From NCBI GenBank assembly GCA_021793155.1, contig JAJYTF010000023.1, positions 1 through 64,000 on the forward strand: a stretch of DNA of 64,000 bases. The letters are read 5' to 3'. Position numbers and translations under genes: made by a program. Position 1 is the stretch's first letter, and the number at the start of each line of letters is the position of its first letter. This DNA comes from Pseudomonadota bacterium (GTDB lineage: Bacteria > Pseudomonadota > Alphaproteobacteria > Rhodospirillales > Magnetospirillaceae). The notes under the pieces were generated by a model, which ran no database searches, was not told the origin of the DNA, and saw only the letters and a list, made by a program, of their open reading frames with translations. Shown piece after piece: positions 35,180 through 64,000 of the stretch.

Positions 35180-35230
35180 GTCAACCCCCTTGCCGCGGTC
35201 AGGCGTAAGTGTTGCGATTATCGTGAACCG

Positions 35231-35273
35231 AGACGGGAATTATCACGGACCAAGACGGGAATGTCAATTCCCG
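35231..35273. promoter_or_regulatory. Candidate operator: repeated AGACGGGAAT half-sites between rmlA and the ABC exporter
   Basis: AGACGGGAAT occurs at 35231-35240 and again at 35253-35262, exactly 22 bases (about two helix turns) apart. The second copy forms an inverted repeat CGGGAAT-GTCA-ATTCCCG (35256-35273). Three half-sites on one DNA face in a 160-base divergent promoter region suggest cooperative binding by a dimeric regulator. No known consensus was recognised. Confidence 0.4.
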
Positions 35274-35339
35274 CGCGTCTCGCACCACAATGTCATTCTT
35301 CCCCTGGTTGATCCGTGGCATCAGGATCTGTTCCGGAGT

Positions 35340-36203
35340 ATGCTGAAGTTAGACAGTGTGCTCTCATCCTCTACCTTCTCGAGCAGGATGGCTCGGATCG
35401 ACGGGGATCTTTTGTTAAGGCGCATCTCGATGTCAGTCTTCCATCTAAATCCTGGCTGGCGAGACCTTGTTTTCAACCTCGTCTCAAAAGAAATAAAAGT
35501 GCGATACATGGGAGCAGCGCTAGGATTCGCGTGGTCACTTGGAAACCCTCTCTTAACAACACTAACATATCTTGTCGTATTTACATGGATATTCCCAACC
35601 AGGCAAGACAGATTTGTTTTATATTTGGCAACAGGCATGCTTCATTGGTCATTGTTCAGCCAGGTCGTATTAATGGGTTGCGAGTGGCTTACAGTGAATT
35701 CAAATCTCTTGAAAAAGATATATTTCCCACGATTGATTATCCCGATTTCCGGAATATTGACAAACATTACATTCTGGGCCGCTGCATTTATTATTTATTG
35801 CATGCTATATATGTTTCTTGGCGGGCACCCATCCGCTGCCATGCTTGGCTACCTAATCATCTGGCCAGCGTATGTTGCTTTTTGTTTTGGGATCGCCCTT
35901 GTCTTCTCAGTCATTCATGCCCTATTCCGAGATCTCCGACATATCGTCGACGTACTGTTACCACTGTTGTTCTGGTTGACACCAATCATTTGGGCTCCCA
36001 GCACGTTGCCACCCCAAATCCGCCCCTTGTTGTCGGCCAACCCGCTGGCCCCCTTTTTCTTTTCATTCGAAGCCATTCTACACGACGGGTCCTGGCCAAG
36101 TCTGGAGACGACAGCCCTATGCCTGCTACTGGGGGCCGGAACCTTGGGCGGCGGCCTCCTGATCTTCACACGCCAAGTTCACAAAGTCATAGAACGCATA
36201 TGA
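35340..36203 (+). CDS. ABC-2 type polysaccharide export permease (Wzm/TagG-like)
   Basis: A 287-residue permease with six hydrophobic helices. The cytoplasmic entry motif RDLVFNLVSKEIKVRYMGAALGFAW is diagnostic of the ABC-2 polysaccharide exporters; RDLRHIVDVLLPLLFWLTPIIW is the conserved helix 5 region. It moves a completed lipid-linked polysaccharide across the inner membrane with the ATPase encoded next (ATGA overlap). A GGAG site precedes ATG 35340. The gene is clearly more AT-rich than its neighbours. Confidence 0.88.
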   Translation: MLKLDSVLSSSTFSSRMARIDGDLLLRRISMSVFHLNPGWRDLVFNLVSKEIKVRYMGAALGFAWSLGNPLLTTLTYLVVFTWIFPTRQDRFVLYLATGMLHWSLFSQVVLMGCEWLTVNSNLLKKIYFPRLIIPISGILTNITFWAAAFIIYCMLYMFLGGHPSAAMLGYLIIWPAYVAFCFGIALVFSVIHALFRDLRHIVDVLLPLLFWLTPIIWAPSTLPPQIRPLLSANPLAPFFFSFEAILHDGSWPSLETTALCLLLGAGTLGGGLLIFTRQVHKVIERI

Positions 36204-36910
36204 ACCCGACCGTCATCGAAGTCAGCAATGTGGGAAAGACGTTCGGCCTCAACCACCACTGTGCCGTCGGATTGAAACGCCAATTCGTCGGCATCCTCAG
36301 CGAACGCTGGCGGACACACGTGGAAAAATTCGATGCTCTGACCGAGGTATCGTTCTCGCTCGACCGTGGCGATTCGCTGGCTTTGCTTGGCCACAACGGG
36401 TCAGGCAAAAGCACCTTGCTGCAAATCCTGGCAGGCGTACTGAAGCCGACAACGGGAAGAGTCATGACCCGGGGGCGTATCGCACCAATCATCGAACTGG
36501 GCGTCGGGTTTCACCCGGATTTGACGGGACAGGAAAACATCTTCCTGAACGGAAGCCTTTATGGATTGAGCAATGCGGAAATTCGCTCACGCTATGACGC
36601 AATCGTAGAATTCTCAGAACTTGGAAGATTTATTGACGTTCCAGTCCGAACATATTCTTCAGGAATGTATCTTCGCCTGGGATTTTCAGTTTCTGCATAC
36701 ATTGAACCAGATATCCTTCTTGCAGACGAATTCTTAACCGTCGGCGACGCTGACTTTGTTCAAAAATGCTATCAACGAATCCGCCAGATGCAACAAAACG
36801 GCATGACGTTGATCCTGGTTACTCATATCGAGGAACAAGCCAGGCAGTTCTGCCGGCAATACCTGCGGCTGGATCACGGCAGAGTGGCAGACCGCGGTCG
36901 TTTTCCGTAA
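36200..36910 (+). CDS. ABC transporter ATPase for polysaccharide export (Wzt-like, short form)
   Basis: A 236-residue ATPase: Walker A GHNGSGKST, Q-loop region IIELGVGFHPDLTGQENIFLNG, signature YSSGMYLRLGFSV, Walker B ILLADEFLTVGD and H-loop VTHI. It ends shortly after the nucleotide-binding domain, so it lacks the C-terminal carbohydrate-binding domain that Wzt of E. coli O8/O9 types uses to recognise a capped O-antigen. This short form resembles TagH/RfbE/KpsT-type ATPases whose export does not depend on a terminal cap. Confidence 0.88.
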   Translation: MNPTVIEVSNVGKTFGLNHHCAVGLKRQFVGILSERWRTHVEKFDALTEVSFSLDRGDSLALLGHNGSGKSTLLQILAGVLKPTTGRVMTRGRIAPIIELGVGFHPDLTGQENIFLNGSLYGLSNAEIRSRYDAIVEFSELGRFIDVPVRTYSSGMYLRLGFSVSAYIEPDILLADEFLTVGDADFVQKCYQRIRQMQQNGMTLILVTHIEEQARQFCRQYLRLDHGRVADRGRFP

Positions 36911-37553: not shown

Positions 37554-40500
37554 CCCCTACGGCGCCCTGATCAGGCTCGAGGAATTCTTGACCGCGCAGC
37601 GATGGACGGAGGCCGAAGCCCTGGCTCGCCGACAACTGGCGCTTGGCGCGCGCGATCCCGAAAACCATGCCGCCGCCGTCATCGCCATGGCCCGCATTGC
37701 GCTAGGCCGTGGACGCAGGGATGAAATGCATCGCTGGCTCGACCGGGCCGGACGGATCATGACCAATGACGAACGATTCCGCGAATTCCAGGCGTCGTTG
37801 CTGCTGTCCGCCGGCGACGCAGCCGCGGCGTTGACCGTGCTTGCCACCCGCCCGGAAAATGCCCCCCCCCGCAGCTTGGCCGAAAGCGTTGCGCTGGCGC
37901 TGGCGCGCTGGCAGAACGGCCAACAGGCAGAAGCCTGCGCCCTAGTCCAAGACCTACTGCACCGACACTTGGTAACGCCAAACTGCGCCCTCAGCGGTCT
38001 TGCGGGGGTGATCGCCGCGGCCCAACAACGGCCGGGCTGGGTTGGCCATGGCGGCGGCGGTCTGCTGATCGGCGCGCTGCGTTTTGATCTGCCGGCAGAA
38101 GCCGAGGTGATCCTCCGCCCAGCATCGGACGGGGCCGCTCCGTTCATTGCCACCTCTGTGTCGCGTTTCATCGACCAGTACCACGCCGACCGCTCGACAA
38201 GCGCCACGACGGCTTTCACTGTTCTATTAGACAGCGCGGCCAGCGGACCGCTGTCCTTCGAGATCGAGGGCCAGCCGCTGCTCGGCAGCGCCCTCCCCTT
38301 GTCGCAGGCACTGGTCATCGAAGGCGTTGCCGAGATCGAAGGGTCGCGGGTATCCGGCTGGGTGTCCTGCTTCGATCTCCCGGATTTTCCGCTTGAGCTT
38401 CGCCTTATCGATGGTGCCGGGCGATGGGTTTGCCCCCCCGTCGACCTGCGGAACCAGCATGGTGAATGGCGCCGGACATTCTCGTTCGACTTGACCGATA
38501 AAGACCTTGCCCCCGGCCTGATCGAGGTGACCGCCGGCCCGCAGCATCACCCCTTAGCCGGCAGTCCCGTCCGCTGGGTGGACTGCGGAACGAAGCTGCA
38601 CCCGGCAATCGCGCCGGAGAGCCGGCAGCGGACCGTCGACGTTATCGTTCCCGTCTATGGCGGGCGCGAGGATACGTTGGCTTGCCTGGACAGGCTGCGG
38701 GTGACCCTGCGGGGAACCGGAGCCACATTGGTGGTGGTCGACGATGCCACGCCGGATCTCCTGCTGTCCGCCGCGCTCGACCACCTGAATGAATCCGGCC
38801 GGTTTACGCTGTTGCGCAATTCAACCAACCTCGGCTTCCCGGCGTCGGCAAACCTCGGAATGGCGCTGCATCCCGACCGCGATGTGGTGTTGCTCAACGC
38901 CGATACCCTGGTGTTCGGCGACTGGCTTAAGCGGCTGCAGGCGGCCGCTTACGCGAGCCCCGATACCGGAACAGTGACGCCGCTATCCAACTATGCCTCG
39001 ATCTGCGCATATCCGACACCTGGGACTCTCAGCCATGGAGAGACCGACGCCGAGATACGTCCATCAGCGGCCAGATGCGCGGCGGTGGACCGCGTTGCGC
39101 GCCGTGTCAACGCCGGCCGCCGCGTTGAACTCCCGACCGCTGTCGGCTTCTGCATGTATATCCGTCGCGCCTGCTTGGCCGAGACCGGCGATTTTCGCGA
39201 AGAGCTGTTTGGCCGAGGCTACGGCGAAGAGAATGATTTCTGTATGCGTGCGCGCCACCTGGGATGGCGTCACTACGCCGCCGCGGATGTCTATGTCGCA
39301 CATGTCGGCGGCCAGTCGTTCGGCCGGCAAGGGCGCCTTCTGCAAGAACGCAACATCCGCGTACTGGAACGGCTGCACCCCGGCTATCAGGCGCTGATCT
39401 CCCGCTTCCACGCCGCCGACCCGCTGGCTGAATCGCGCCGCCGGCTCGACCTGTCGCAGTGGCACCCTAGCGACCCGCGGCCAACCACCCTGATCATCAC
39501 CCTCGATCTTGACGGCGGCGTCAGTGCCCATGTGAATGAACGCGTTCGCCTCCTGACCGAAAGCGGCCACCGGGTCGTTGCCGTTGTCCCAGCGGCCACG
39601 GGCGACCATACCGAACGCAGGCGCTGCCGCCTCATCGATCGGCAGCGGCCGGAACTCCGCGACTTGGTCTTCGATACGCCTGACGAGATGGATGATCTGG
39701 TTGCCCTGTTGCGCCGGTCGCGGGTCGTTGCGATCGAGATCCATCACAGTCTCCACCACGATGCGTCCGTGCTCACCCTGCCGCAGCGGCTGGATGTCCC
39801 GTACGAGGTGGTGGTGCATGACTACCACTGGATTTGCCCGCAACTCGTCCTGATCGGTATCAGTGCCCGCTACTGTGGCGAACCAGACATCGAGTCGTGC
39901 GAATATTGTGCCCTGACCCTGGGAGCGGAGGACGGAGCCGCCGATATCAGTGTTGCCGAATTGCGTCGGCGCTCCGCCCGGCTCCTGGCCGGCGCCGAGC
40001 GCGTGGTAGCTCCCAGCCAGGACGTGGCAATACGACTGCGGCGCTATTTTCCGGACTTGACGCCCTTCGTCGAGCCATGGGATTCGGTAGTGCCGCCCAA
40101 GACGGCCCCAACCGCCCGCAAGCAGGCCAAAGTCTGCGTCATCGGCGCCATCGGGCCGCACAAGGGATATGACATCCTGCTGGCCTGCGCCCGCGATGCC
40201 GCGGCCCGCGATCTGCCTCTGGACTTCGTCGTCGTCGGGTATACCTGTGACGATGGCCTTCTGTTCGCCACCGGCCGGGTTTTCATTACCGGTCGCTACG
40301 ACGAGGCCGAAGCGGCAGACCTGGTTCGCGCCCAACAGGCCCAGATCGCCTTCCTTCCCTCGATATGTCCTGAAACCTGGTGCTATGCCCTATCGGTGGC
40401 GTGGCGCAGCGGATTGCCCGTGGTTGCCTTCAACCTTGGTGCGCAGGCGGAACGGATCCGCGCTTCCGGAGGCGGCTGGACGCTGCCAACGGGCATGCAG

Positions 40501-48369: not shown

Positions 48370-50457
48370 TCATTTCAACAAGGCGGTCAGCCCCTCCTTC
48401 AGCGACAGGTTCGTCGTTCTGTCACGATCGGCGACCAGTTCGTCACGGAGATCGTCGATCGACATCTCCCCGCGATACAGGTCGAACCGGATCTGGTCGC
48501 GACTTATTGCGGTAACTTGTGTGCCGTGCTCGAAGAGCAGAGTATTGAGAAATTGATGCGCACCAAAACGCAGGGCATAACTCTGATCGACGCCGTCTTT
48601 GTTCGCGGCGGCAAGCAGCAGTCGTTCGCCATCGAGCACACGATCCAAAGCGACCCGATCGGCAAGGATGTAGCGGTCGCCGAGCCCCTCGATGAAGGCC
48701 GCATGAGCGTCATGATCGGCGAATAGCCAATTGGGTTCGCGGTCGAGCGACTTCGTGAGAAGAGAGCAAATGGACCCGCTCTGCAGCCGCAGATCTGGCC
48801 GTATCAAGAGTCCATGCGTGACCGGCGCTTCACGCCGTATCTCAGCTTCCGCGACGAGATTGCGGAGCGCCCCGATTCGATTCCACATCCGCCCCTGATT
48901 GACAAGATTGCGATCGCCGCCGCAACGCGCTGAAATGACGGCCCCAGCATGTTTCACATAAAATTCGTCACTCTCTATACTGGTCAATAGCGCGTCATCG
49001 CAAATATTTCTTAACACATCTACGTTTATCCCCTCCACAGAGAGGGCCTGTTCGATGACTTTATCGGCCGTATTTGGCAAAAGACACTTGACATCATTGA
49101 TCTTATTAACGGGATACCTCATAATTATATTGGTTATTTCCGGGGGAAGGTGCGGAAAAATAAAGCCAGCGCCATCCCAATCATTGAATCTCCGTTGGCC
49201 GGCGACATTCCAGGTGGCCATTCCGACGCTGACGAGGCCGCCAGCCTGTCGAAACCCTTGAAGATCATTCTCAAGGTAGCTCCGCAAGCAAGGCAAAACG
49301 ATGTGCGGAAACCGAAGTTGGCCAAAAAAACCAATAAACAAATGAGGCGCCGCCGTCGCTGCCGGCAAACTCGTCCGGGTTGAAGGCAAAACACCCGCTT
49401 CCACGAAGGCAAGGTCTGGCGCCCCTTCATGCTTGAGGCGACGGGCAGTAATTTCGTGAAACTGCTGACGGGCGCGTTTCTGGTGCCAGGAGGCGCCCTG
49501 CGCGGCATTCGATTCGTCGATGGCGCGCGACAAGGCCTCGCCATGTTTTCGCCATTGGTGGTCGCCAGTGATGTCGCCGAGATGAAACAGGCTTTTGATG
49601 AAGTCCGGATTGCTCACAATCGGTGTCGCGAGCAGACGCCTGCCACAAGCCGTCGCCCGTTCGATATCGCGGAATGAAACCAGGAACCGCATTGCGATCG
49701 CCTGGACCTCGGGCTCATATTCGTCGATACCATCGGCAATGATGGCGCACAGCACTGACGGCGACACCAGTGGCGAAACTGTGAACACCGACTCCCGCAG
49801 GAATCCCTCGACCATCTCTGGCAGGTAATGTCCTCGTAGAATATGGTCTGAAACGTGGCCGTATATTTGCTGAGAAATTAGGTTGGTACCCTTGACGATT
49901 TCGCCGGAAGCAACAATGACACCGAGTTGCGCCACTAATTGGCAAACCCGCCGGGTCAGTGACAATATTAATTGAAAACGTAGAATTCTAAAAGTTGGCA
50001 CCTGGGAAACATCATCTTGAGAGATGGCGCTGAGCGCGTCAGACAAACCATAGATATTCCCCGCCTGCTCCTGCGCAGCACCGATCAAAAGTCGAATATG
50101 TTTATCAGATTGCAATTGCACGGGAACCGTCGTGATAAACTGTAATGATTGCTCGCTGTCACGAATCATCAGCACCAGAATTACAAGTATTTCAAGGCAG
50201 AGGTTCCGCTCCTTGATGACTTTCCACAGCCGCAACATCATCTTCAGAGCATACTGTGTGTCACCGCTGTCGCGAGCACAGACTGCCAAGGCAACCACGC
50301 GGTTGACCAGGCCGCCGCATGTGGCCGGCACGGACAAGTCGGCCGTCGATGCCGCCAATCGTTCAAACGCTTGAACGGCGTCGTCGAGGGAACCAAAATT
50401 CAATGCTCGTTCAATCTCCGTCCCGTCAATCGGTTCACTTGCGCTTGGCGCCGACAT
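48370..50457 (-). CDS. Large protein with helical N-terminus and glycan-locus C-terminal domain
   Basis: A 695-residue protein of unknown function. Residues about 1-350 are helical (possible TPR-like repeats). The C-terminal half begins LFIGFFGQLRFPHIVLPCLRSYLEND and contains NQGRMWNRIGALRNLVAEAEIRREAPVTHGLLIRPDLRL. The order GQLR ... RMW-x-x-I ... I-R-x-D-L recalls uncharacterised glycosyltransferase-like proteins in capsule loci. There is no signal peptide or transmembrane segment. More AT-rich than the left part of the window. It lies between the giant glycosyltransferase and the GDPD-like gene. Confidence 0.6.
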   Translation of the reverse strand: MSAPSASEPIDGTEIERALNFGSLDDAVQAFERLAASTADLSVPATCGGLVNRVVALAVCARDSGDTQYALKMMLRLWKVIKERNLCLEILVILVLMIRDSEQSLQFITTVPVQLQSDKHIRLLIGAAQEQAGNIYGLSDALSAISQDDVSQVPTFRILRFQLILSLTRRVCQLVAQLGVIVASGEIVKGTNLISQQIYGHVSDHILRGHYLPEMVEGFLRESVFTVSPLVSPSVLCAIIADGIDEYEPEVQAIAMRFLVSFRDIERATACGRRLLATPIVSNPDFIKSLFHLGDITGDHQWRKHGEALSRAIDESNAAQGASWHQKRARQQFHEITARRLKHEGAPDLAFVEAGVLPSTRTSLPAATAAPHLFIGFFGQLRFPHIVLPCLRSYLENDLQGFRQAGGLVSVGMATWNVAGQRRFNDWDGAGFIFPHLPPEITNIIMRYPVNKINDVKCLLPNTADKVIEQALSVEGINVDVLRNICDDALLTSIESDEFYVKHAGAVISARCGGDRNLVNQGRMWNRIGALRNLVAEAEIRREAPVTHGLLIRPDLRLQSGSICSLLTKSLDREPNWLFADHDAHAAFIEGLGDRYILADRVALDRVLDGERLLLAAANKDGVDQSYALRFGAHQFLNTLLFEHGTQVTAISRDQIRFDLYRGEMSIDDLRDELVADRDRTTNLSLKEGLTALLK

Positions 50458-50535: not shown

Positions 50536-53500
50536 TCATCCCTGAATGACCACCTCATTCTTGGCCGGGACGTGTCGTGGACTGAGTCGCGCGTCCGTTG
50601 GCCCACGAAGTTTTTTCAGGTGGATCTGTCGGATGCGGGACACGATATCTTCGGCACGATGGGCGAAGGTGTGGCCGGCCAGAACGATTTCCCGCAGCCG
50701 GTCAGCCCGCTTGCGGCGTTCTTCCGGATGGGCTTCGAAATAGGCCACTTTCGCGGAAAGGTCGGCACAATCGCTGTAAGTAGGCACGGTGTCCGCGAAG
50801 ACATCTTCCAGGCCTCGCGCCCGATCGGAAATGACGAAAGCTCCACAGGCTCCTGCGTCGAACAGGCGGTTCGAGAGAAATCCGTGCCGCCCCATGCTGT
50901 CCCAATGGTCGTTGTAGACGATCTCGGCCGCCGAATAATGGCGCCGCAATTGGTCATTCGGAATATACTCGCCCTTGACGGCATGAGGCGTCACCAGTCC
51001 TTCCCACTCACGGCCGAATATCGACAGCGGGATACCGCCGGCGATTGCGTCCTCGACGATCCGCCGCTTTTGCCGGCGCGAATTGCCGACGAAAAGGTGC
51101 TTGGCCGGCCCCTCACCCGCCGGCAACGGGTCCGGGTGGAATATTTGCGGATCGGTGCACTGGAGCAGCGGCGACGCATCGACCTCTTGTTCGATCAAAT
51201 GCTGCGCATAGGAGGTGGAGGCCACGAAAACGTGGTCGTAGCCTTGCATCTCGCTCAAGGCCACGCGGTCAGGATGGCTGATCAACCACATCAAATTGAT
51301 GCAGTCCGGCTGGGGGTCATAACTGGACAGCCCCCTAAGAACGATGATTACGTCATCCATTCCGCTTTTTTGTTTCCACTCGGAGAGCATATCGATCCGG
51401 ACACGATGGCCGCCGGCTCGGAGATAACGCGCCAGCCCATTGGCGAAATGCCAATCACCCCAAGCATGGCGCTCCCGCGCATTGGGCACCGGAATCTTGA
51501 TGGCAATGCGGAACGTCTCTTCCAAGTGATCGACGAGTATGTCCATCAGGGCTGCCGCCCGCTGCTGGTATGTGTGCTGCTGGCGAACCAAAGCTTGTAG
51601 GCGCCCGGCCAATTCCTCACGCTCGTCCGGATGTTCCAGATAGTGGCGCAGCTTTTCCGTCAAGTCGGCTTTGCCGGACCAGACGGGAAGCATGCCGTCA
51701 AAAGTATCGAGCGAAGCCGCCGCCGAGTTGGTTAGAACGAGCCGCCCGGCGGCGATCGCGTCGAAAACCCGCGAATTCGCCGAACCCCATTTGCGAGCAC
51801 TCGAATTCGCGTCATCGATGACCAGGGACGTCGATGCATAAACGTCGGGCATTCGGGAATAGGACAACTGCCCACGGCCGAAGCGCCTCAACCGCTCGTG
51901 GGATTCCCAGCCGGCGCCGAACAGAGCCAAGCGGAAGGGCAGCTTTTCCGGTTCCAGGGCGGCTTCCACATCGCGCCCACCTCCCCACAACGAACCGTTA
52001 AAGCAGTAGTCTGACGCCAGAGTGGAATCGCGTTGCCCCGCCGCGAAACTGTCGACATTCGTCGCGATCGGAAACAGATGGGCGACTATATTGAATTGTT
52101 CAAGAAGATGCTTGGCGAACGTCGCCGAGGACGAGAGATAGACATCGAATTGCCGGAACCACTCCTGCTCGCTCCAATCCTCGAAATGATTGCGCATCCA
52201 GGCAACCCGCAGGAGATCCGTTCGAGCGTGCAGGATGGACGTCAGGTCGTAATCGTGTCGCATGACGATCAAGACGTCGGTATCCAAGAGCTCGAACCAA
52301 TTCTCATCCTCGGCGAGGAAAACAGGTTCCACTCCGGGCACCTTGCCAAGTTCGCGCGCTAATTCCAAAGCCGTGAAATAATCGCCGGCCTTAGCCATAG
52401 GCCCGTATTCCGTGACTGCGAAAGCGATACGCAGCGGCTCTACGGAATAGATGCGATCACGCGCAATCTTGCTGCGGCGGAACAGATGCTTGATCGCATA
52501 GCCGAACCGCTCTTCGAGCTGCTGGCGGTTCTGCGCAAGCCGCCCCGTCACGCCGGCCTCCCGCCCCGTCAGACGAGTGTAGCCGCGGTGATGCATGGCA
52601 ACCAGATGATTGGCCGTCACCACGCGCTTACCAAGCTGCTGCCGGTATTTCAGGCAAAGGTCGACGTCTTCGAACCCATAGAAGTAGCCTTCGCTGAATC
52701 CGCCAACGCCCAGAAATTCGTCCCGTCGCACCAGCATCACCGCGCCTGTCGTACACGCGGTATCCTCGAGGGCATAAGCCCGCGGAGCCGTATACGCCGT
52801 GAACTTCTCATCATACGGGCTATACCCCCGCCCATCCCCAGCAGGACAAAAGCGAACTCCGAGGTGTTGAATGGGCGGAATCTCCGTTTCCGAATGCCTC
52901 TCGATCACGTCAAGCAGCTTACAGCCGACAACGCCAATATCCGTTTGCTCGATAATTGAAAGCATTTGCGACATTATGTCTTGGATAAATATAATATCAT
53001 TATTAAGGAACAGCAGATATTTTCCGTTAGCGGCCTCGGCGGCACGATTGTTTGATACAGAGAATGAACCGTTATGATCGAGATACATTCTAACAATCGG
53101 CAAACGCTCTGCCCAATGGTCGACGATGGAACGGCTGCCATCCGACGAAGCATGATCGACCAAGATGATCTCGCAATTGGTCATAGAACACCAACGCTCG
53201 AATGACCTAAAGAGATAGGGCAATATATCAGCGCCATTTCGATTAAGTATAATCACCGACAACGTGCAGTGTTTTATTTGCACTGGCGCGAGCCGAGGTT
53301 TACTCACGAGAGAATAATCTCGGAACAAATCATCCAGCGCGGTCGCTGGCGCGTCCGTAGCGAGGTTTCCGGCACGACGGAATTGCACGTCCATCGCACT
53401 ATTGTTCAAGATCTCTCCGGTCTTAACGACCCGGATCTGGACGTTGTGCTCGCCACCGTCGCACAACACTTGCGGCGTAAACACCTTGAACCCGCAGTTG

Positions 53501-55068
53501 CCCGCAGTTGGATAATGCCGTTGAACATCTCCTCGATAGGCCTTGGTCTCGAACCTCCCAATCATCTTGCCATCGACAAGAAGATCAAGCTCTATTACTT
53601 GATTTGGTGCATTCAGATCAAATGCCCATCCAGTAATTTCGGTGCGAAGCACACTGTCAAGATTACCGACCACCTTCGCTTTTTCATTTGATGCAACGAT
53701 TTCCAACGGCGACCCGTGGAGTTCGTAGCCGGTGCCGACAAGCGTGACATGCACGGCCGATTTTCCTGTCAACGGGGGATCGAATTCCAATCCAAAGGCA
53801 AATGCATGTTCAACAAGGCCGGCGGCGACAACGTCCGGACGCGGGCTGGTCAGCGTTGACATAGCGATAGCTTTGCCGTCAATGGTCGCCGCCACACGCA
53901 GTTTATGGGACGGAGCCGACCCGCGTGTTCCGACCCACCCCAGAATTTCGCGTGAACTGACCTTTTCAATGTGGCCTGCGTACTTCCCGCGCTTCATTGT
54001 CACAGAGCCGTTGCGCAGTGTTGCCCCAGTATGGGCGAGCCGCACTTCCACCTGGTGTTCGAAGCCGTCAAGAAGTATTGCCGGCGTCTTTATCGCAAAT
54101 CCGCAGAATTCGCATGCCCCATATGCTTTGGCAATGTCCTTGCGACTGAGATTTGCTTTGCCGCCAGTCGCAACATGACCGTCGACTACAATTTCCACAA
54201 GCGCGCGGGTCTCCGGGTCTGGACCAAGCGCCCACCCCTGAATCCAATCCCCTTCCATGACGTCGACCCGCCCAATATTCCGTTGCGCCGGATCTTTGGC
54301 CGCAAAGCGGGTATCGGGCGCGGCCGCAACCGTAACGACCGTGGGGCTTCCCTCGACTTCGCCATCATGGCCGACGAATCGGACATGAACAATTTTTTCC
54401 ATACCGTCCGCGAGCTTGCTCGGCAATTCGGCGCAAAAACCGTGACGGCCGCCCTCATGCCGCGCGCCTCCGCCTTTGCGAGGACGATCGGCAAGACAGC
54501 GTGCAACCGCTTCGCCGTCGACCACCAGTTCCAATTGGACCGGCGCATCAGGCGTTCGTGAATCTATCGCCCATCCTTCCAAATGGCGGCCCGTCACTTT
54601 CTCAATTTCGCCGCTCAGCGAGGTGGTGAGCTGAAAACTTTCAGATCTCGGCAAGACGCAACCGTCTGGACAGACAGCGCGCAGATCAGCAAAACGGACC
54701 GTCGGAACGGCTGCCGGCATGTCAAAACGGAACGCACAATGACCTAAGTCGCACCCGTCGAGATCTTCTCTTCGCTGATCGCCGATTGCAGTTCCGATAA
54801 GTCCACCATCGAGCAATATGGACACGATCACTTTTTCGGTCTTATCGGAAAGTTTTTTTACCCACCCGGTAATTTCGGTCGGGCCAACGCTGTCGATATG
54901 ACCAACATAATCCGATTGGCAGCCATCCTCCGCCTTGGTATCACCCGAGAAGCGGGCAGAAACCCCAACGGACCCGTTCGTCGCAGCGGCTCCAACATGC
55001 CTCTCCACCAGGGCCCCTGACTCCGTTGCCGTCTGCGTTGATCGCGTCATTTCCGACCTCGTCTTCAC
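50536..55068 (-). CDS. Giant glycosyltransferase: five GW modules, one GT2 and two GT4-like domains
   Basis: A 1510-residue protein. Residues about 54-565 are five tandem beta-rich modules of roughly 100 residues, each with GW(A/V) (at about 69, 166, 279, 378, 481), a V-x-V-x-x-DG strand and a late GF or FAF. A GT2 domain follows at about 600-870 (LSVIILNRNG, VDHASSDGS, FLNNDIIF, TGAVMLVRRDEF, YGFEDVDLCLKYR). Two CgeB/GT4-like domains follow (about 880-1180 and 1190-1490), with SANSRVFDAIAAGRLVLTNS and FLSNRLFDAGACGAFVISD as donor-site motifs. It is cytoplasmic. One chain could thus add several sugars in sequence. The next gene encodes a sister giant enzyme six bases upstream. Confidence 0.82.
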   Translation of the reverse strand: MKTRSEMTRSTQTATESGALVERHVGAAATNGSVGVSARFSGDTKAEDGCQSDYVGHIDSVGPTEITGWVKKLSDKTEKVIVSILLDGGLIGTAIGDQRREDLDGCDLGHCAFRFDMPAAVPTVRFADLRAVCPDGCVLPRSESFQLTTSLSGEIEKVTGRHLEGWAIDSRTPDAPVQLELVVDGEAVARCLADRPRKGGGARHEGGRHGFCAELPSKLADGMEKIVHVRFVGHDGEVEGSPTVVTVAAAPDTRFAAKDPAQRNIGRVDVMEGDWIQGWALGPDPETRALVEIVVDGHVATGGKANLSRKDIAKAYGACEFCGFAIKTPAILLDGFEHQVEVRLAHTGATLRNGSVTMKRGKYAGHIEKVSSREILGWVGTRGSAPSHKLRVAATIDGKAIAMSTLTSPRPDVVAAGLVEHAFAFGLEFDPPLTGKSAVHVTLVGTGYELHGSPLEIVASNEKAKVVGNLDSVLRTEITGWAFDLNAPNQVIELDLLVDGKMIGRFETKAYRGDVQRHYPTAGNCGFKVFTPQVLCDGGEHNVQIRVVKTGEILNNSAMDVQFRRAGNLATDAPATALDDLFRDYSLVSKPRLAPVQIKHCTLSVIILNRNGADILPYLFRSFERWCSMTNCEIILVDHASSDGSRSIVDHWAERLPIVRMYLDHNGSFSVSNNRAAEAANGKYLLFLNNDIIFIQDIMSQMLSIIEQTDIGVVGCKLLDVIERHSETEIPPIQHLGVRFCPAGDGRGYSPYDEKFTAYTAPRAYALEDTACTTGAVMLVRRDEFLGVGGFSEGYFYGFEDVDLCLKYRQQLGKRVVTANHLVAMHHRGYTRLTGREAGVTGRLAQNRQQLEERFGYAIKHLFRRSKIARDRIYSVEPLRIAFAVTEYGPMAKAGDYFTALELARELGKVPGVEPVFLAEDENWFELLDTDVLIVMRHDYDLTSILHARTDLLRVAWMRNHFEDWSEQEWFRQFDVYLSSSATFAKHLLEQFNIVAHLFPIATNVDSFAAGQRDSTLASDYCFNGSLWGGGRDVEAALEPEKLPFRLALFGAGWESHERLRRFGRGQLSYSRMPDVYASTSLVIDDANSSARKWGSANSRVFDAIAAGRLVLTNSAAASLDTFDGMLPVWSGKADLTEKLRHYLEHPDEREELAGRLQALVRQQHTYQQRAAALMDILVDHLEETFRIAIKIPVPNARERHAWGDWHFANGLARYLRAGGHRVRIDMLSEWKQKSGMDDVIIVLRGLSSYDPQPDCINLMWLISHPDRVALSEMQGYDHVFVASTSYAQHLIEQEVDASPLLQCTDPQIFHPDPLPAGEGPAKHLFVGNSRRQKRRIVEDAIAGGIPLSIFGREWEGLVTPHAVKGEYIPNDQLRRHYSAAEIVYNDHWDSMGRHGFLSNRLFDAGACGAFVISDRARGLEDVFADTVPTYSDCADLSAKVAYFEAHPEERRKRADRLREIVLAGHTFAHRAEDIVSRIRQIHLKKLRGPTDARLSPRHVPAKNEVVIQG

Positions 55069-55074
55069 TGGTTC

Positions 55075-58000
55075 CTATGACAGGGTAAGCAGTCTCCGGC
55101 AGTTCTCGTGAACAAAGCCCGGCGATATACCCTCAAGGCATGTCAATGCGCGCGGACATTCCTCCAGGCGGCTGTGGTAACAAGGCGCGCATGACAGGTT
55201 CCGTCGCAATGCGACTGCACACGGGCCGATGGGCCCCCACTCCTCGGTGGCGACCACCCCCGAGTGAATCCCGACCGTCGGCGTCCCAAGGCTTGCTGCC
55301 AGATGTTTTGGCCCGCTGTCGTTGCCAATGTAGAGCGCGCAAAGAGCGAACAGTGACGGGAGTTGGCCAAGAGCAAATCGACCGACCAGGTTCCACGTTC
55401 TTCGCCGGTCGAGATTCTCGAGGATTATCTCGGCAATTTGCGCATCTTCCGGGCTGCCGATCAAGGCGACGTGGACGGCATCATCCGTCAGCAGAAGCTC
55501 GATCAGGTCAGAGAAATGCTTCGCAGGCCACTGCTTCATCTCATTGCCCGCCCCGGGATGGACGCAAATCACGGAGCCGCGGAACAGGGCACGCCCTTCG
55601 TCACCCAGTACAGCGATGACGTCCCGCCGCGCCTCCTCGCGATCCATCGCCTTCATCTCCGGGCGGGCTTCACAAGCGTTGGCCACGGCGTCTACGAGAT
55701 TCATCAGGTCTGTGGCCACATGGGAACGTTTGACCGCCAACGGGCGGTCGGCCTCCCATTCCAGCGCTACGTCCAGCCATGGATTGGCATTGTCGTGATC
55801 GAAGCCAGCCAGCCATCGGGCGCCGGTGTACCGGAGGATTTGCCTGGTATCGCCTATCTTGCGCAAATCGATGGCCAAATCGAATCTGTGCGGCGCCAGA
55901 CGCTTCCGCAGTGCCTCCAGATCCACTTCCTCCATTGGCCGGCGCCCCATTGCAGAGCGGGCAAAAAAGAAGTTGAACGGAATGACTTGATCGATGAATG
56001 GTTGCCCGTTGGCAATAGCCAATGAACTCTCCGCCGCCAGAACGGAAATCGAAGCATCGGGAAAATGCGTCTTGAGGCGCCTTATGGCCGGAAGGGCCGT
56101 CACCAGATCGCCAATGTGATCGAGCTTGACCACGAGAATACGGCGAATGCACGCCTTGTCGGCAATCGGATGTCCGGCGAAGACGGTCTGAAGCGGCTCG
56201 GGCTCAGGCACCATATCGTCATCGTCAATTGACAAATGCGGATGAAAATAAGGGTCGCCCGTGTGAAACAGTTTTTTCCACCGCGCCATAAAACGGCCGG
56301 CGTCGTATTCGTCGCCAAGTCCGTCGCGGCTGGCGAGTTCATGATGTATCAGCTTGACATGGGGCGTAAAGACGACGCGTCGCCCGCTCTCGACCGATCT
56401 GAGACAATAATCGAGATCGTTATTAACGATCCGATAGGCTTCGTCGAAGCCACCAAGGGCCTGGAAGGCTTCACGCCGTACCATCATGCACGCCCCGGTG
56501 ACGCAAATGACATTGCGCTGAGTCATCGCCAGACCGAAATAGCCGGGGGCGGACTCCCCCGCAAAGCGGAATGCATGGCGTGCGACGCCTCGCTTCGACA
56601 GAAACATACCCGCATGTTGGATCTTGCGGTCGGGATAAAGCAGCAAGGGCCCGACCACGCCGACGGCCGGCCGCTGCGCTTGGGCGATCAGCCCCTCGAT
56701 CCAATCGGCTTGCTCGATCTCGACATCGTCGTTGAGGAAGAGCAGGAAATCTCCATGCGCGCTCCGCGCCCCCAGATTATTGAAGCGAGACCAATTGAAC
56801 GGGCCGTCCACGGCGATCACCGTCTCGGCATTGGCCCGCAACCACTGCTTCAGCGCCGCGTGGCCCTCAGGGATGTGATCGACACAGACAATCTCGGTGT
56901 GACGATAGGTCGAGCGGCGACGGATCGTTTCCAGGCAGTTGCGGATCAGCCCGCGCGCCCCGGCCGTGGGAATAATGATCGACACCAGGGGTTCGCCGGT
57001 GACTTCCGGCTGAACCCGATAGATCCCGGGAAGACAGCTACGCTGCACAATTGCTTTGCCGCCTTGCCGGCCAAGAGCCGCTTCCAGAGCCCGTTGCTCC
57101 TTCTCCGGCTCATCGAGGTCTCCGGCACCGCGCTGACAAAGAACTTTGGCGACGTGGCGGATACCCTTGGCCCTCTCGGTCAGACGCAGCACCAGGTCAT
57201 ATTCGCCTTGTTCCAACAATTGCGGCAAAGTCGCGCCGCTGGTCGCCAGCAGGTCCTCTGCCACACACCACAGCCGCCCGATATAGTTGGTCGACAGCAA
57301 CAGGTCGGGCGACCATTGCGGCTTGAAAAACGCCTCCATCCGGTCTGAGGCAGGACTGATCCGGCGCTCGTCCGCATAGAAGAAATCGGCCTCGGCGTCC
57401 GCGACCGTCGCCATGGCCAGTTCCAAGACAGCGTCGCAGGACAATTCATCGCCCGGTGAAAGCATGCCGAAGAAACTCCGTTCCTGCCCCTGTCCGCGAC
57501 GCTTGGGACCGGCAACCGGATGCCATGCCAGGATGTCCGCCAGCGCGCCGATCGCTCGAGGACCGACGACGCGCATTCGTTCACCCAAAAGACGACGATC
57601 GCCGGCCAAGGCGGCGGTAACCATCGATGCCGAGATGCCAGGCGGCGCTACGACGGTGAGATGCCAAGCCGGTAGGCCTTGTGCCTGGAGCGAGCCGATG
57701 GTCAAGCGGGCCGCCTCAAGATCGGAGGCGCTCCTCAGGCGCATCAGGAGGCAATAGCGAGCAGCCCGCCGCGCCCGGTCGAGGACGGCCAAAGCAAGGC
57801 TTACCTCGGCATGGGGCATCTTCCGGCGCAGACGGCCAGGGCCGCATTCCGGTTCGGCCAGATTGACATCAAGAATGACCGTCAGATCACGACTACCGCC
57901 TGCGCGGTCACGAACCATGACGCGCAGGATATGCTCTCCGTCGCTCAGCCCTTTGGTTGGAACCCGCATGGCAAAGCCGCTTTCCAGGGCGCCTCCGCTA

Positions 58001-59073
58001 TCGGCATATTCCTTTTCGACGTCTTTGCGCTGCAACCCGTACGCAGCCTGGCCGATCGCCAGATCGTCAATGAACACATCAACGCCGGCTACGCCATGCC
58101 GCGCCAGAGCCCATCCCTCCAGCGTGAATGGGCGGGAGACAGATATGGCACCGGAGCCAGCCTGTAACACCGGCGCATCAATAAACAACCGGATGGCATC
58201 GTCTCGGATTTCTGGTGAGAAAATTGTCTTGGCCGCCGCATCCGGCAGAAACGGCGACGGCTCGACAGCCTTCAGGCTCAATGAAACTTCGCACGCCCGG
58301 TCTGCACCGTCCATCGCTCTCACGGTTACCAGATGGCTCCCCCGCAGTGACGCCGCGATATTGGCCTTGAAAAGGAAGCCGAGATGGCCGGTCGCCACCA
58401 ACTGGGGAAAAACCGTTGCAACGTCAGGGCGCTCGCGGTCGAGATTCGCCTCGCCAACCATTTCGCCGTCGAAAAACACCGCGACTACCGCGTCGCCGCG
58501 CGAACCAGTTGCCCATCCCTCGATTGCCAGACTGCCATCGCTGCCGAGGTGGGCTTTGTCAACGTATAGGCGATACCTGTCATCGGTTGGACGCCCCCCG
58601 GAGGGCAAAGCCGGCGGGCTGACCAACGCCAGAGCTCGCCCGTCGGGGGTGGTGGCGGCCGCAAGCGCAGCGGCCAGTTGGTGGATGACCCTGAAAGATC
58701 GGCCCGCCCGAGTACGGATGTTAATGCCGGCATGGGGATTCGATAAGTCCAGGCGAAAATCCGGCACCACCGCAATGAACCCGCACCGATCGCCGTTGGG
58801 CAATTGGCGGATGGCCTGAGCGACATGCGGCCGCGGGTGGCCATAGGCTCCGACGATCAAGACGCCGTCGCCGCGCTCCACGGCGATCTGGATTACGCCG
58901 TCAGGGCTGACCGCCCATCCGGACAGGAACAGATGGGCAAGAACCACGCCGTCCTGCACGGGCCGACATTGGCTGAGGACCGCATGATCGACACTGACTG
59001 CGCCCACGACGTCCTGGCCGTGGCGATCGAAAAAAGGATGGGCGCTGGAACAAGACAGCATTCCGCCCGCCAT
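55075..59073 (-). CDS. Giant glycosyltransferase: three GW modules, two GT2 domains and a GT9 domain
   Basis: About 1332 residues from ATG 59073; TTG 59091 and ATG 59061 are alternatives. GW modules carry GWA at about 53, 187 and 321. The first GT2-like domain (about 440-690) has FFYADERRIS and FFKPQWSPDLLLSTNYIGRLW. The second (about 695-975) has LVSIIIPTAGARGL, FLLFLNDDVEIEQADWI and GACMMVRREAFQALGGFDE. The C-terminal heptosyltransferase-like GT9 domain has RILVVKLDHIGDLVTALPAI, HPGAGNEMKQWPAKHF and GNDSGPKHLAASLGTPTVGI. Together with the 1510-residue enzyme it may assemble most of a repeat unit. Confidence 0.82.
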   Translation of the reverse strand: MAGGMLSCSSAHPFFDRHGQDVVGAVSVDHAVLSQCRPVQDGVVLAHLFLSGWAVSPDGVIQIAVERGDGVLIVGAYGHPRPHVAQAIRQLPNGDRCGFIAVVPDFRLDLSNPHAGINIRTRAGRSFRVIHQLAAALAAATTPDGRALALVSPPALPSGGRPTDDRYRLYVDKAHLGSDGSLAIEGWATGSRGDAVVAVFFDGEMVGEANLDRERPDVATVFPQLVATGHLGFLFKANIAASLRGSHLVTVRAMDGADRACEVSLSLKAVEPSPFLPDAAAKTIFSPEIRDDAIRLFIDAPVLQAGSGAISVSRPFTLEGWALARHGVAGVDVFIDDLAIGQAAYGLQRKDVEKEYADSGGALESGFAMRVPTKGLSDGEHILRVMVRDRAGGSRDLTVILDVNLAEPECGPGRLRRKMPHAEVSLALAVLDRARRAARYCLLMRLRSASDLEAARLTIGSLQAQGLPAWHLTVVAPPGISASMVTAALAGDRRLLGERMRVVGPRAIGALADILAWHPVAGPKRRGQGQERSFFGMLSPGDELSCDAVLELAMATVADAEADFFYADERRISPASDRMEAFFKPQWSPDLLLSTNYIGRLWCVAEDLLATSGATLPQLLEQGEYDLVLRLTERAKGIRHVAKVLCQRGAGDLDEPEKEQRALEAALGRQGGKAIVQRSCLPGIYRVQPEVTGEPLVSIIIPTAGARGLIRNCLETIRRRSTYRHTEIVCVDHIPEGHAALKQWLRANAETVIAVDGPFNWSRFNNLGARSAHGDFLLFLNDDVEIEQADWIEGLIAQAQRPAVGVVGPLLLYPDRKIQHAGMFLSKRGVARHAFRFAGESAPGYFGLAMTQRNVICVTGACMMVRREAFQALGGFDEAYRIVNNDLDYCLRSVESGRRVVFTPHVKLIHHELASRDGLGDEYDAGRFMARWKKLFHTGDPYFHPHLSIDDDDMVPEPEPLQTVFAGHPIADKACIRRILVVKLDHIGDLVTALPAIRRLKTHFPDASISVLAAESSLAIANGQPFIDQVIPFNFFFARSAMGRRPMEEVDLEALRKRLAPHRFDLAIDLRKIGDTRQILRYTGARWLAGFDHDNANPWLDVALEWEADRPLAVKRSHVATDLMNLVDAVANACEARPEMKAMDREEARRDVIAVLGDEGRALFRGSVICVHPGAGNEMKQWPAKHFSDLIELLLTDDAVHVALIGSPEDAQIAEIILENLDRRRTWNLVGRFALGQLPSLFALCALYIGNDSGPKHLAASLGTPTVGIHSGVVATEEWGPIGPCAVALRRNLSCAPCYHSRLEECPRALTCLEGISPGFVHENCRRLLTLS

Positions 59074-59091
59074 TCGCCTGGAGAATTGCAA

Positions 59092-61079: not shown

Positions 61080-62438
61080 TCACGGCTCGCGCATACCTTC
61101 CGACATGTTCCGCAAAGCCCCCTCCAGGATATAAGCCATGATGGTCCGCCGCCCGACGACGACGTCAGCGACAAGAGTCATCCCCGGCACGAGCCGGAAA
61201 TCCTTGGGCACGCCACGTAGGGCGAGGTCGGTCAAATCGATCCGGGCGCGGTAGAACCGCTTGGGGCTTTCCGCCTTGCTGTCCTGCGGCGCAAATGAAT
61301 CCGCACTGATGCCGCGTACCACACCGTGCGCCATGCCATGATCGATGAATTGGTAGGCCGCGAATTTGATATTGACCTTTTGTCCGGAGACAACGAAACC
61401 CTGGTCGGCAGCATCAATGTCGGCATCAATAGAAAGGTTGCTTCCGATGGGCACCAGGGTCATTACCTGATCGCCCGGTTGCACGACCGAACCGATGGAA
61501 AATCTGCCGACCTCAAGCACTATTCCGTCGCTCACCGCCCGCAGTTCGACCATGTCCTGGCGCCGCTCGGCCTTGGCCAAGTCTTGCAGAACCTGCTCGT
61601 ATTCTCCGCGGTGAGTGACTAGATCCTTGGTGATTTCGCTTTTCCACTGCTGAACGTAGACTTCGCGCTCGGCCCGCTCAGCCTCCATGTCGTGGGTCGC
61701 GGTCAACACGGTGTTTTGCGCCTCCGACAGGTTGCGCGCCACTTCAACCCGTGCATCCGAGGCAAGCAGAGAGTTCAGCCGGCTTCCGATTCTCTTGAGC
61801 TCCAACTCCTTACGCATGCTCTCGACTTCGCTGGTCAACCCGAGGCGCGACCGATAATGGCCGACGTCCTGCTGCGCGCGCAGAATCGTCGCCTGATCCG
61901 CATCGATCTTCTGCTTGAAGCTCATCAACCTGGCGCTGTATTCAGCTTGCCGTGATTGCCAGATGGACAGTTGAAGCGCCGCATTCGAATTATCCCCCGA
62001 GGCGACGAAGGGCTGGCCCTTTTGCTCTGCGTCCAACCGGGCGATCACGGCTTTCAGCCGCGCAGCCTGAGCGCGCAGGGCACCGACATCGGCGGCCTGG
62101 AAGGTGGGGTCCAGGGTCGCCAGCACGTCGCCGCGCCGCACCACCTGCCCTTCGCGTACAGGGATGCCGCGAACGATAGAGGTATCCAGCGGCTGAACCA
62201 GCAGCTTTGGTATTTCCGACACCACTCGGCCGTTGCCGGTGACGACCCTCTCGATCTTGAGCACCGAAGCCAACAGGATGGCCACGACCAGCATGGCGGC
62301 CGACGCATGCAGCACCAGGCGGGCCATCAGCGGATCGGCGGCCCCGGTAATGGCCGCGGTCTCGGATTGGAAATCGTTGATTGCCTGCTCGGCCTGGGCG
62401 TCAGAGTGCGGCCGACGCCGCCAGATCGGGACGTTCAT
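61080..62438 (-). CDS. HlyD-family type I secretion membrane fusion protein
   Basis: About 452 residues from ATG 62438 (TTG 62453 also possible). A cytoplasmic N-terminus is followed by one membrane helix (about 42-62) and ERVVTGNGRVVSEIPKLLVQPLDTSIVRGIPVREGQVV (lipoyl half). A long periplasmic coiled hairpin follows (about 120-290). The second lipoyl half and beta-barrel domain contain LRAVSDGIVLEVGRFSIGSVVQPGDQVMTLVP, and the protein ends in GMTLVADVVVGRRTIMAYILEGAL. It links the inner-membrane ABC exporter to a TolC-type channel. It overlaps the ABC gene by 38 bases. Confidence 0.9.
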   Translation of the reverse strand: MNVPIWRRRPHSDAQAEQAINDFQSETAAITGAADPLMARLVLHASAAMLVVAILLASVLKIERVVTGNGRVVSEIPKLLVQPLDTSIVRGIPVREGQVVRRGDVLATLDPTFQAADVGALRAQAARLKAVIARLDAEQKGQPFVASGDNSNAALQLSIWQSRQAEYSARLMSFKQKIDADQATILRAQQDVGHYRSRLGLTSEVESMRKELELKRIGSRLNSLLASDARVEVARNLSEAQNTVLTATHDMEAERAEREVYVQQWKSEITKDLVTHRGEYEQVLQDLAKAERRQDMVELRAVSDGIVLEVGRFSIGSVVQPGDQVMTLVPIGSNLSIDADIDAADQGFVVSGQKVNIKFAAYQFIDHGMAHGVVRGISADSFAPQDSKAESPKRFYRARIDLTDLALRGVPKDFRLVPGMTLVADVVVGRRTIMAYILEGALRNMSEGMREP

Positions 62439-64000
62439 AGGCTGCTCCAACAATGATGTGGCGGTTCTGCTGCGTCCATAGATGACGATAGATTTCGCAA
62501 CGACCCAGCAGTTCGGCGTGAGCTCCGGCGTCGTTCAATTCGCCCTGCTCGAGCACCAGGATCTGATCGCAATGCACCAGAGACGCCAAGCGGTGGGAAA
62601 TGACAATCATGCTGCGGCCGTCAGCTATGCGCTGCAGGTTTCCATTGACGATGCTCTCACTTTCAGGGTCGAGCGAACTGGTCGCCTCGTCGAGAATCAG
62701 CATCGAGGGGTCGCCCAAGAGAGCCCGAGCGATGGCCAGGCGTTGGCGCTGGCCGCCCGAAAGGTTGCTCGACCCTTCGGCGAGTGTCGTCTCGTATCCC
62801 TTGGGCAGGCGTTCGATGAACTCTTCCGCGCCGGCGAGGCGCGCGGCCCGAATCACCTGTTCCAGACTGGCTCCCTGATACCCGGCGGTGATGTTTTCCC
62901 GGATCGTACCCTGGAACAGAAAATTGTCCTGCAACACCACGCCGACGCGCGAGCGCAGGTGCTTGATGTCGATGTCGCGCAAATCGATACCGTCGACCTT
63001 GATCAGACCCTCGTAATCTCTGCTCAGGCCTTGCAGCAGCCGCGTCACCGTCGTCTTGCCCGAACCACTGCGCCCCATGATGCCGAGCATGCCCCCCTTA
63101 CTCAGCTCAAATGAAATATCCTTCAGCGCATAGGTCGCCGCGCCGGGATAGCGAAAGCGCACATGGGAAAAGCGGATATTCCCTTCGATGTTCGGGCGGG
63201 CGCCGTGAAATCCAGGGATCTGCTCCGGCTCGTTGTTGACTACCGAGGCGACCTCGCCTATCGCGCCGCGCACTTCCTGAAATTCCTGCATCAAGCCGGC
63301 AATCTGCACGAGAGGCGCCGCCACGCGTGCGGCGATCATTCCGAAGGCGACCAAAGTCCCGGCGTAAACGGTTGCCCCCTCACCGATCGCCAGATAGGAG
63401 CCCACCACCAGAACGACAGCAAAAACGGCCTTCTGCAACGGTTGAATGATCGTTTGAGGCTGATTCGACAGCAGCTGCAAAGCGGTGTTGGCACGGACCG
63501 CCTCGGCGACATGGGCGTCCCACAACTGGCGCTTCGGCTCTTCGATGGCGAGGGACTTGACCGTGCGGATGCCGTGGATCGTCTCCACCAGCAGCGTGTT
63601 CTTGGCGATCTCCGCCTTCACCACGCGGCCGTAGGCCAACCCAAGCGGCCGGATGTATACAAGGACCGTGATGAACATCAAGGCGCCGATACCCAAGGTG
63701 ATGAAGGTAAGTGTCGGGCTAAGGACGAAAAGAACGGGAATCAGCACCACCAGATTGAGGGACTCAAGAGCGGCGCCAAACAGCGGCCCGGTCAGGAATT
63801 GCCGTATGCGCCAGATTTCGTTCAGCTTGAATATCACCTGCCCTGTCGGCGTCCGCTCGAAGAAATCCATCGGCAGCCCGATCATCCGGTCAAAGATATA
63901 AAGGCACAGCCGCGCGTCGATACGCGCTGTGCCGATGGCCAGAAGATAGCGCTTGAGAAAACCGAACAGCGTGTCGAAGACCAAGACGAACAGGATGCCC
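62401..64000 (-). CDS. Type I secretion ABC exporter (5' end outside the window)
   Basis: At least 532 residues of a HlyB/RtxB-type half transporter. Membrane helices occupy the first 260 visible residues, with the family motif DRMIGLPMDFFERTPTGQV. The ATPase domain has Walker A GRSGSGKTT, signature NLSGGQRQRLAIARALL, Walker B MLILDEATSSLD and H-loop ISHRLA. The frame is open to the window edge, so any N-terminal C39-like domain cannot be seen. With the HlyD partner it would export a protein without a signal peptide; no RTX-type substrate is in the window. Confidence 0.9.
   Translation of the reverse strand, partial: GILFVLVFDTLFGFLKRYLLAIGTARIDARLCLYIFDRMIGLPMDFFERTPTGQVIFKLNEIWRIRQFLTGPLFGAALESLNLVVLIPVLFVLSPTLTFITLGIGALMFITVLVYIRPLGLAYGRVVKAEIAKNTLLVETIHGIRTVKSLAIEEPKRQLWDAHVAEAVRANTALQLLSNQPQTIIQPLQKAVFAVVLVVGSYLAIGEGATVYAGTLVAFGMIAARVAAPLVQIAGLMQEFQEVRGAIGEVASVVNNEPEQIPGFHGARPNIEGNIRFSHVRFRYPGAATYALKDISFELSKGGMLGIMGRSGSGKTTVTRLLQGLSRDYEGLIKVDGIDLRDIDIKHLRSRVGVVLQDNFLFQGTIRENITAGYQGASLEQVIRAARLAGAEEFIERLPKGYETTLAEGSSNLSGGQRQRLAIARALLGDPSMLILDEATSSLDPESESIVNGNLQRIADGRSMIVISHRLASLVHCDQILVLEQGELNDAGAHAELLGRCEIYRHLWTQQNRHIIVGAAYERPDLAASAAL

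Follow-up and report, generated by a model that had tools for sequence, protein, structure and literature searches.

An uncatalogued repeat module in large glycosyltransferases of a bacterial polysaccharide gene cluster

Within a 64,000-nucleotide stretch of a Magnetospirillaceae genome (positions 1 to 64,000 of contig JAJYTF010000023.1, assembly GCA_021793155.1; hereafter the window, to whose whole length all coordinates refer), we characterized a repeated module of ~97 residues encoded by two adjacent genes on the minus strand, P0001 and P0002, in both of which all copies lie N-terminal to the glycosyltransferase (GT) domains. P0001 (50536..55068; 1510 amino acids, aa) carries five modules located by profile search: m1 (aa 52-150; 54619..54915), m2 (aa 151-249; 54322..54618), m3 (aa 263-361; 53986..54282), m4 (aa 362-461; 53686..53985) and m5 (aa 465-565; 53374..53676). 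They are followed by a GT2 catalytic domain (aa 604-717; 52918..53259; PF00535, 9.5e-14) and by a C-terminal GT-B type domain (Glyco_trans_1_2, PF13524, 7.6e-51, in two stretches), the best stretch of which covers aa 1333-1476 (50641..51072). P0002 (55075..59091, 1338 aa), which starts at a TTG at 59091 and not at 59073, carries three modules, then a GT2 domain (56455..56982; PF00535, 2.8e-12) and a GT9 domain of the heptosyltransferase family (55171..55914; PF01075, 6.1e-30). Its second (aa 178-276; 58264..58560) and third (aa 311-410; 57862..58161) modules were detected by profile, and the diverged first (aa 43-142; 58666..58965) by hhalign. A third large protein, P0003 (37522-41409, plus strand, 1295 aa from a GTG), probably contains a ninth and very diverged copy at aa 264-355 (38311..38586).

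At the level of sequence, the five repeats of P0001 and the three of P0002, as proposed in a preliminary description of this DNA, were confirmed. A profile built from the five P0001 copies scored P0002 at 56.1 bits, in comparison to 8.3 bits for the best of 900 shuffled sequences. In leave-one-out searches the score of each P0001 copy against a profile of the rest was 25-63 bits (E 6e-10 to 1e-21), with m1 and m4 matched over their first two thirds only. A profile of 149 foreign copies, containing no row from the window, matched P0001 at E 6.7e-88, with five domains each at 1e-11 or better, and P0002 at E 5.8e-11, with copy 2 at 1.9e-5 and copy 3 at 1.2e-4; because the foreign copies had been recruited by searches started from window copies, these matches indicate a shared family and not a blind discovery. 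Copy 1 of P0002 was not found by this profile (-0.3 bits) and is supported by hhalign (86%, E 5e-6). The related copy that had been suggested for the enzyme at 37.5 kb, then given as 1292 residues, is the probable copy in P0003. It scored 1.9 bits with the five-copy profile, as shuffled sequences did, reached E 0.018 with the foreign profile and lacks the R-x-D signature; hhalign aligned it at 85% (E 6e-6), compared with 0.3% for one control stretch. In the source genome, module matches at E<=0.001 were confined to the window.

For four of the five P0001 copies the best foreign module outscored every sibling, the exception being m3, which is closest to m5. The comparison sets four siblings against more than 100 foreign modules and so favours the foreign set. 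A recent tandem duplication of the P0001 array is therefore unsupported, since four of its five copies are nearer to some foreign module than to a sibling.

Library searches, conservation and predicted fold

The module family is uncatalogued in the Pfam, NCBIfam, PHROGs and PDB-sequence scans, in agreement with the earlier remark that no named domain was recognised in it. Over the modules of P0001-P0003 every Pfam model stayed below its cut-off, as was also the case in ten foreign proteins with modules, and 24 single modules gave only scattered weak Pfam matches, one member each. The best NCBIfam stretches listed up to E 10 never overlapped the modules of the three window proteins, two unnamed PHROGs families matched one module each among 94 (E 0.0016 and 0.0052), and the PDB sequence search returned no significant match. 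The bacterial Ig-like domains Big_7 and Big_13 showed local similarity in P0002, far below their curated cut-offs: Big_7 (PF17957, cut-off 24.1 bits) reached 12.5 bits (E 0.25) over aa 317-350 only, and Big_13 (PF19077, cut-off 27 bits) reached 13.5 bits (E 0.1). In the single-module scan (E<=1) each had its best match in one of the 24 modules, at E 0.041 and 0.02, respectively. The Listeria-type GW domain was not among the Pfam matches of P0001-P0003 up to E 10, a range in which the HMMER filters drop most matches above 0.1. Literature searches, from which subscription journals were mostly out of reach, found no description of the module.

The hallmarks of the module are G-x-[ILV]-D, GW[AV], DG, R-x-D[LV] and [GA]F. 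Conservation of R, D and GW was read from a 24-row alignment, A2 (eight rows from the window), gathered by profile and tblastn searches, because the set collected by DNA pattern had required G-x-G-x-H, which inflates the conservation of that stretch. In A2, GW is present in 24/24 rows (100%), R in 96% and D in 92%.

AlphaFold2, supplied with 94 modules as alignment, predicted for m5 a compact seven-stranded sandwich in which a short helix follows the R-x-D motif (mean predicted local distance difference test score, pLDDT, 95.9; predicted template modelling score, pTM, 0.86), in accordance with the compact beta-module that had been proposed. When the neighbouring modules m3 and m4 were modelled together (pLDDT 93.2, pTM 0.70), the last strand of m3 led almost straight into m4, and the relative orientation of adjacent modules is only moderately certain. 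Foldseek with the m5 model returned nothing at E<=0.001. After re-alignment of the Foldseek candidates, 987 of 997 chains had Z>=2, with the best value, 8.2, for the Nir2 C-terminal domain and values of 6.5-8 for the other rows listed, among them the B1 domain of CelAly (Z 7.4). By our own count, 19 of 50 rows are titled fibronectin, fibronectin type III (FnIII) or immunoglobulin (Ig), and the remaining listed rows are mostly sugar-cleaving enzymes and receptors. The X1 modules of CbhA, fibronectin III-like and part of a cellulase (3pe9, 3pdd), are among the rows so titled and are sandwiches of similar size (Z 7.1-7.4, root-mean-square deviation, rmsd, 2.1-2.2 over 78-82 residues, 19-21% identity); they differ from the module in giving no significant sequence match in the PDB search, and a Z below 8 may reflect a common arrangement only. 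Values of this size point to a fold class and not to a family, and in that sense the predicted module looks like an Ig/FnIII-like beta-sandwich. A jelly-roll fold had been expected instead; no jelly-roll carbohydrate-binding module (CBM) was recognised among the structural neighbours listed, a result that does not exclude families outside that list.

By one and the same profile, modules in P0001 are spaced by 4, 17, 3 and 7 residues and the 20 tandem pairs used for modelling by 2-26 residues; that set excludes six of 26 neighbouring pairs, in which the spacing is 56-304 residues or the second module is short. The array had also been suggested to act as a ruler. In the sense of a fixed pitch this became less likely, because the spacing is variable and the relative orientation is predicted with moderate confidence only, the pTM falling from 0.86 for the single module to 0.70 for two.

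Distribution, gene context and the stand-alone form

Counting the source genome, module matches were present in 10 of 55 genomes of the family (E<=0.001), in at least 25 of 289 genomes of the class and in at least 19 of 299 of the phylum (both at E<=1e-4), the tallies for phylum, class and order being lower bounds because only part of the candidates in each genome was scored. Furthermore, a DNA pattern scan gave at least 119 loci in named genomes and also five viral contigs. The profile confirmed modules at 102 of these 124 loci (141 modules in 115 open reading frames, ORFs); the other 22, including three of the five viral loci, contained no module by profile and were dropped as chance matches. 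The titles of the pattern loci are, as an uncounted impression, largely alphaproteobacterial genera, and others include Pseudomonas, Crenothrix, Blastocatellia, Melainabacteria, Solirubrobacterales, Opitutales, Aquificaceae and Aenigmatarchaeota; several of these records are metagenome bins whose titles may be wrong.

The module is associated with polysaccharide enzymes. Our Pfam scan covered 55 larger and 57 smaller host ORFs out of the 115. Among the larger hosts, 29/55 contain the GT4-type domain PF13692 and 15/55 the GT2 domain PF00535, and Hint_2 (PF13403) occurs in 13/55 larger and 8/57 smaller hosts. Single cases comprise GT61 proteins, sulfotransferases, methyltransferases, radical SAM, GH16-type, amidase and laminin-G/BACON proteins; a GT61-module protein is present in G006, a genome of the window's own genus. 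Of 45 larger ORFs with both ends inside their locus, 24 have every module within the first third of the ORF and 10 have every module within the last third.

The surroundings of the three window genes include an RmlA thymidylyltransferase (34214-35179, above its cut-off) and, on the plus strand, a Wzm/Wzt-like polysaccharide ABC exporter (35190..36910; permease ORF 35190-36203), the permease matches being below the curated cut-offs. The Wzt-like ATPase stops right after its ABC domain and thus has no C-terminal carbohydrate-binding domain. Its longest ORF (35315-36910) starts far too early, running in a different frame into the permease ORF; the ABC protein itself has its start at about aa 300. 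A GT4-like ORF (41702-43024) was named by eye, and a type I secretion pair, composed of an HlyD-like adaptor and an ABC ATPase (61080..63984, minus strand), lies beyond P0002. The window also codes for a methyltransferase, a nucleotidyltransferase, a HAD phosphatase and, as judged by eye, a Sel1-like repeat protein. ORFs 48370-50457, 43032-44615, 44622-45329 and 47514-48155 had no Pfam or NCBIfam match at the thresholds used.

A comparable cluster is located on a Niveispirillum plasmid, where an ABC permease and ATPase and a type I secretion pair accompany two neighbouring proteins that bear modules and carry the annotation of family 2 glycosyltransferases. Identity to the window's secretion pair is 61% for the ATPase and 45% for the adaptor, and one enzyme of the plasmid cluster aligns with P0003 over 619 residues at 46% identity. 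P0003 looks like a fusion, since its C-terminal part (aa 1032-1288) matches a separate 290-aa ORF of the same cluster (L216:2001-2870) at 26% identity. Module genes tend to cluster: a pair within 10 kb was found in five of the 12 genomes with at least two module genes, compared with a mean of 0.15 by random placement. This count leaves out the source genome, treats G710 (10.2 kb) as a miss, includes the Niveispirillum cluster (apparently G642) among the five and, being built on the class tally, is limited by the candidates scored. Under the same limit, 12 of 24 genomes had one module gene found.

A stand-alone form of the module was detected when plasmids were searched by tblastn with one module; 69 of the 100 records returned were from Sinorhizobium. 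In S. meliloti 1021 the match is at 974815-975036 of pSymB, on the minus strand (100 bits with the profile, one module copy). According to the part of PMC12542648 that describes the wge genes, the wgeA promoter is at 980325-980305 and a site at wgeH is at 970887, so by these coordinates the match falls inside the wge operon. In the same part of the source, wgeE (SMb21310) appears under the label 'Putative membrane protein WgeE (Formerly ExpE5)', with a locus tag between those of wgeD (SMb21311) and wgeH (SMb21307). In the annotated cluster of Ensifer canadensis, the order is type I secretion system (T1SS) ATPase, HlyD, Ca-binding protein, GT2, methyltransferase, GT4, and then the module protein (246 aa), followed by a 742-aa protein, a GT4 and a pyruvyltransferase. 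The module protein takes the place of WgeE because it is the fifth when the Ca-binding protein is counted first. By position and gene order, the pSymB module protein is therefore WgeE (formerly ExpE5) of the galactoglucan cluster. The review passages on these genes assign galactoglucan synthesis to exp/wge, describe expD mutants as blocked in exopolysaccharide (EPS) II and present ExpE1 as a Ca-binding protein whose secretion ExpD1/ExpD2 carry out; those passages give no function for ExpE5.

Among the hosts are 33 ORFs 200-320 aa long, some of them truncated at the locus end; 30 have a strongly hydrophobic stretch of 19 residues, and in 29 of the 33 this stretch begins 19-24 residues before the C-terminus. 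Such a C-terminus resembles that of a tail-anchored protein, from which we infer a module facing the cytosol. WgeE and the window proteins both place the module in a polysaccharide cluster with a T1SS and GTs, and the GT4-like ORF of the window shows 43% identity across 405 residues with an ORF from the pSymB stretch. They differ in architecture: the WgeE-type rhizobial proteins are stand-alone, ~244-275 aa long and hydrophobic at the tail, whereas P0001-P0003 are multi-domain proteins of 1295-1510 aa in which no WgeE-type C-terminal tail was found, their highest 19-residue hydropathy values (1.37, 1.54 and 1.52) being below the 1.6 cut-off. As judged from their sequences, P0001-P0003 have the module in common with WgeE but are not of the same protein family.

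Possible roles in polysaccharide assembly

How polysaccharide machines hold a growing chain is little understood beyond a few O-antigen models, and the same applies to what limits chain length when the exporter has no glycan-reading domain. The module, an accessory family of ordinary fold class that is uncatalogued and found in many bacteria, is a shared part of such machines. From genome context, a part in polysaccharide assembly is the favoured role, but this evidence does not discriminate between binding of the glycan and tethering of the enzymes.

The explanation that we tentatively prefer, while rating it at somewhat less than an even chance, is that the module is a non-catalytic accessory part of surface-polysaccharide assembly that keeps the growing or lipid-linked polysaccharide near its enzymes. 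The chain would be held close to the catalytic domains, on the cytoplasmic side of the inner membrane, and several weak sites in series could provide avidity. In some bacteria, as in the window, the module would be supplied fused to glycosyltransferases, and in others as a small tailed protein of the same kind of cluster, as in WgeE; this alternation between fused and separate forms is part of the strongest argument for a glycan-holding reading. The other part is that the module occurs both in transferases of the cytosol and in proteins presumed to be exported (GH16-type, AIDA-Hint, amidase), for which an exported glycan is the obvious partner in common. In the part of PMC11231755 that treats the Klebsiella O7 terminator enzyme, an Ig-like domain is read as a CBM, a point not pursued there; it offers a precedent by fold.

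Several observations weigh against glycan holding, the strongest being that Ig/FnIII-like domains often serve as spacers or in protein binding; CbhA X1, which is of similar size and one of the nearest matches, is a spacer-like module. Conservation looks largely structural (G, W, F and hydrophobic residues), and the R-x-D ahead of the helix may also be structural. Transferases make up well short of all hosts, and a glycan role is not evident in every one of them, as with the radical SAM protein at L060. Furthermore, with up to three candidates scored per genome, no P0001 orthologue reached E<=1e-30 among the 149 other genomes sampled from its order.

Two other explanations bear on the same data. 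The modules could bind one another or a common partner and thereby assemble the enzymes of a cluster at the membrane, with WgeE as the membrane dock. We consider this less probable than glycan holding, though a live rival. In its favour, module-bearing genes are often close together, including the two adjacent genes of the Niveispirillum locus L216 (apparently G642 and already part of the clustering count), and the occurrence of the module both fused to transferases and, elsewhere, on its own also suits a dock. Multiprotein glycan-assembly complexes are described for Klebsiella O antigens in the relevant part of PMC11231755. Docking is argued against by hosts that are presumably on both sides of the membrane, in several phyla and with no constant partner seen, and by the genomes in which a single module gene was found (12/24, as limited above). 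Moreover, for each module of P0001 the best foreign module scores at least as high as any module of P0002, and the same holds with the two proteins exchanged; this comparison favours the larger foreign set and comes to a near tie for q3 (76.0 to 76.5). Alternatively, the modules could be FnIII-like beads that set distance or solubility between catalytic domains, like X1 of cellulosomal CbhA. The fold class (3pe9, Z 7.4, rmsd 2.1 over 78 residues), the variation in linkers and copy number, and the almost direct passage from m3 to m4 in the model all accord with beads. This rival is about as probable as docking. Against it, R-x-D and GW are nearly invariant in A2, more than a bare spacer needs, the stand-alone tailed protein has no second catalytic domain to space, and the four P0001 copies that are nearer to a foreign module than to their siblings, albeit in a far larger foreign set, are unlike homogenised arrays.

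Glycan holding has counterparts in characterized systems. The carbohydrate-binding domain of the O-antigen exporter component Wzt is, in the part of PMC9445017 concerned, a cytosolic beta-sandwich that reads the glycan of its own cluster. It differs in being a jelly-roll dimer on the ABC ATPase, whereas the window ATPase has no such domain and the modules are on transferases. In terminators of the WbdD type, as outlined in a section of PMC11231755, an N-terminal head is followed by a helical stretch and a membrane end, with a coiled-coil ruler. The WgeE form may share this layout, its helical stretch being judged by eye; the head is catalytic in WbdD, and in WgeE the head is the module. In a more ambitious version, which we regard as quite improbable, the module would be the first of a new class of cytosolic domains that hold polysaccharides destined for export. 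WgeE would then be a non-catalytic WbdD counterpart, a membrane-anchored helical mast whose head holds on to the nascent chain and so determines processivity or chain length, and enzymes such as P0001 would have internalised the mast as an array of five heads.

The section of PMC12542648 that lists the wge genes labels WgeE just 'putative membrane protein'. With the module placed by position in WgeE, its function is directly testable in S. meliloti, in which galactoglucan production is easily scored. A family profile would also annotate parts of proteins that are now called hypothetical.

Other module architectures

In seven loci, Hint_2, one or two modules and a C-terminal GT4-type domain (PF13692) are joined in single ORFs (L110:3330-8000, L077:3935-7999, L134:103-3813, L068:4326-8000, L085:5132-7861, L101:5420-7999 and L089:1186-3390). 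The L077 ORF adds N-terminal AIDA stalk repeats, which in L134 are just below the cut-off, and the L110 ORF adds an Exo_endo_phos domain. Our literature searches found no paper on this architecture, which could represent a surface protein carrying the transferase for its own glycosylation and freed by Hint cleavage.

Secreted-looking proteins at L036:1465-3057 and L042:223-1815 carry a module near the C-terminus, and membrane-protein-like ORFs at L048:424-3219 and L049:1459-3243 (the latter with PMT_2) carry weaker modules of ~21 bits, these locations being judged by eye. As such ORFs carry it, the module family is not confined to the cytosol. On two viral contigs the module lies behind Hint_2 (L183:9989-11386) and behind Amidase_2 (L184:258-1880), and on a contig titled Aenigmatarchaeota (L114:1411-5109) modules are combined with a PT-HINT domain in one large Cys-rich protein.

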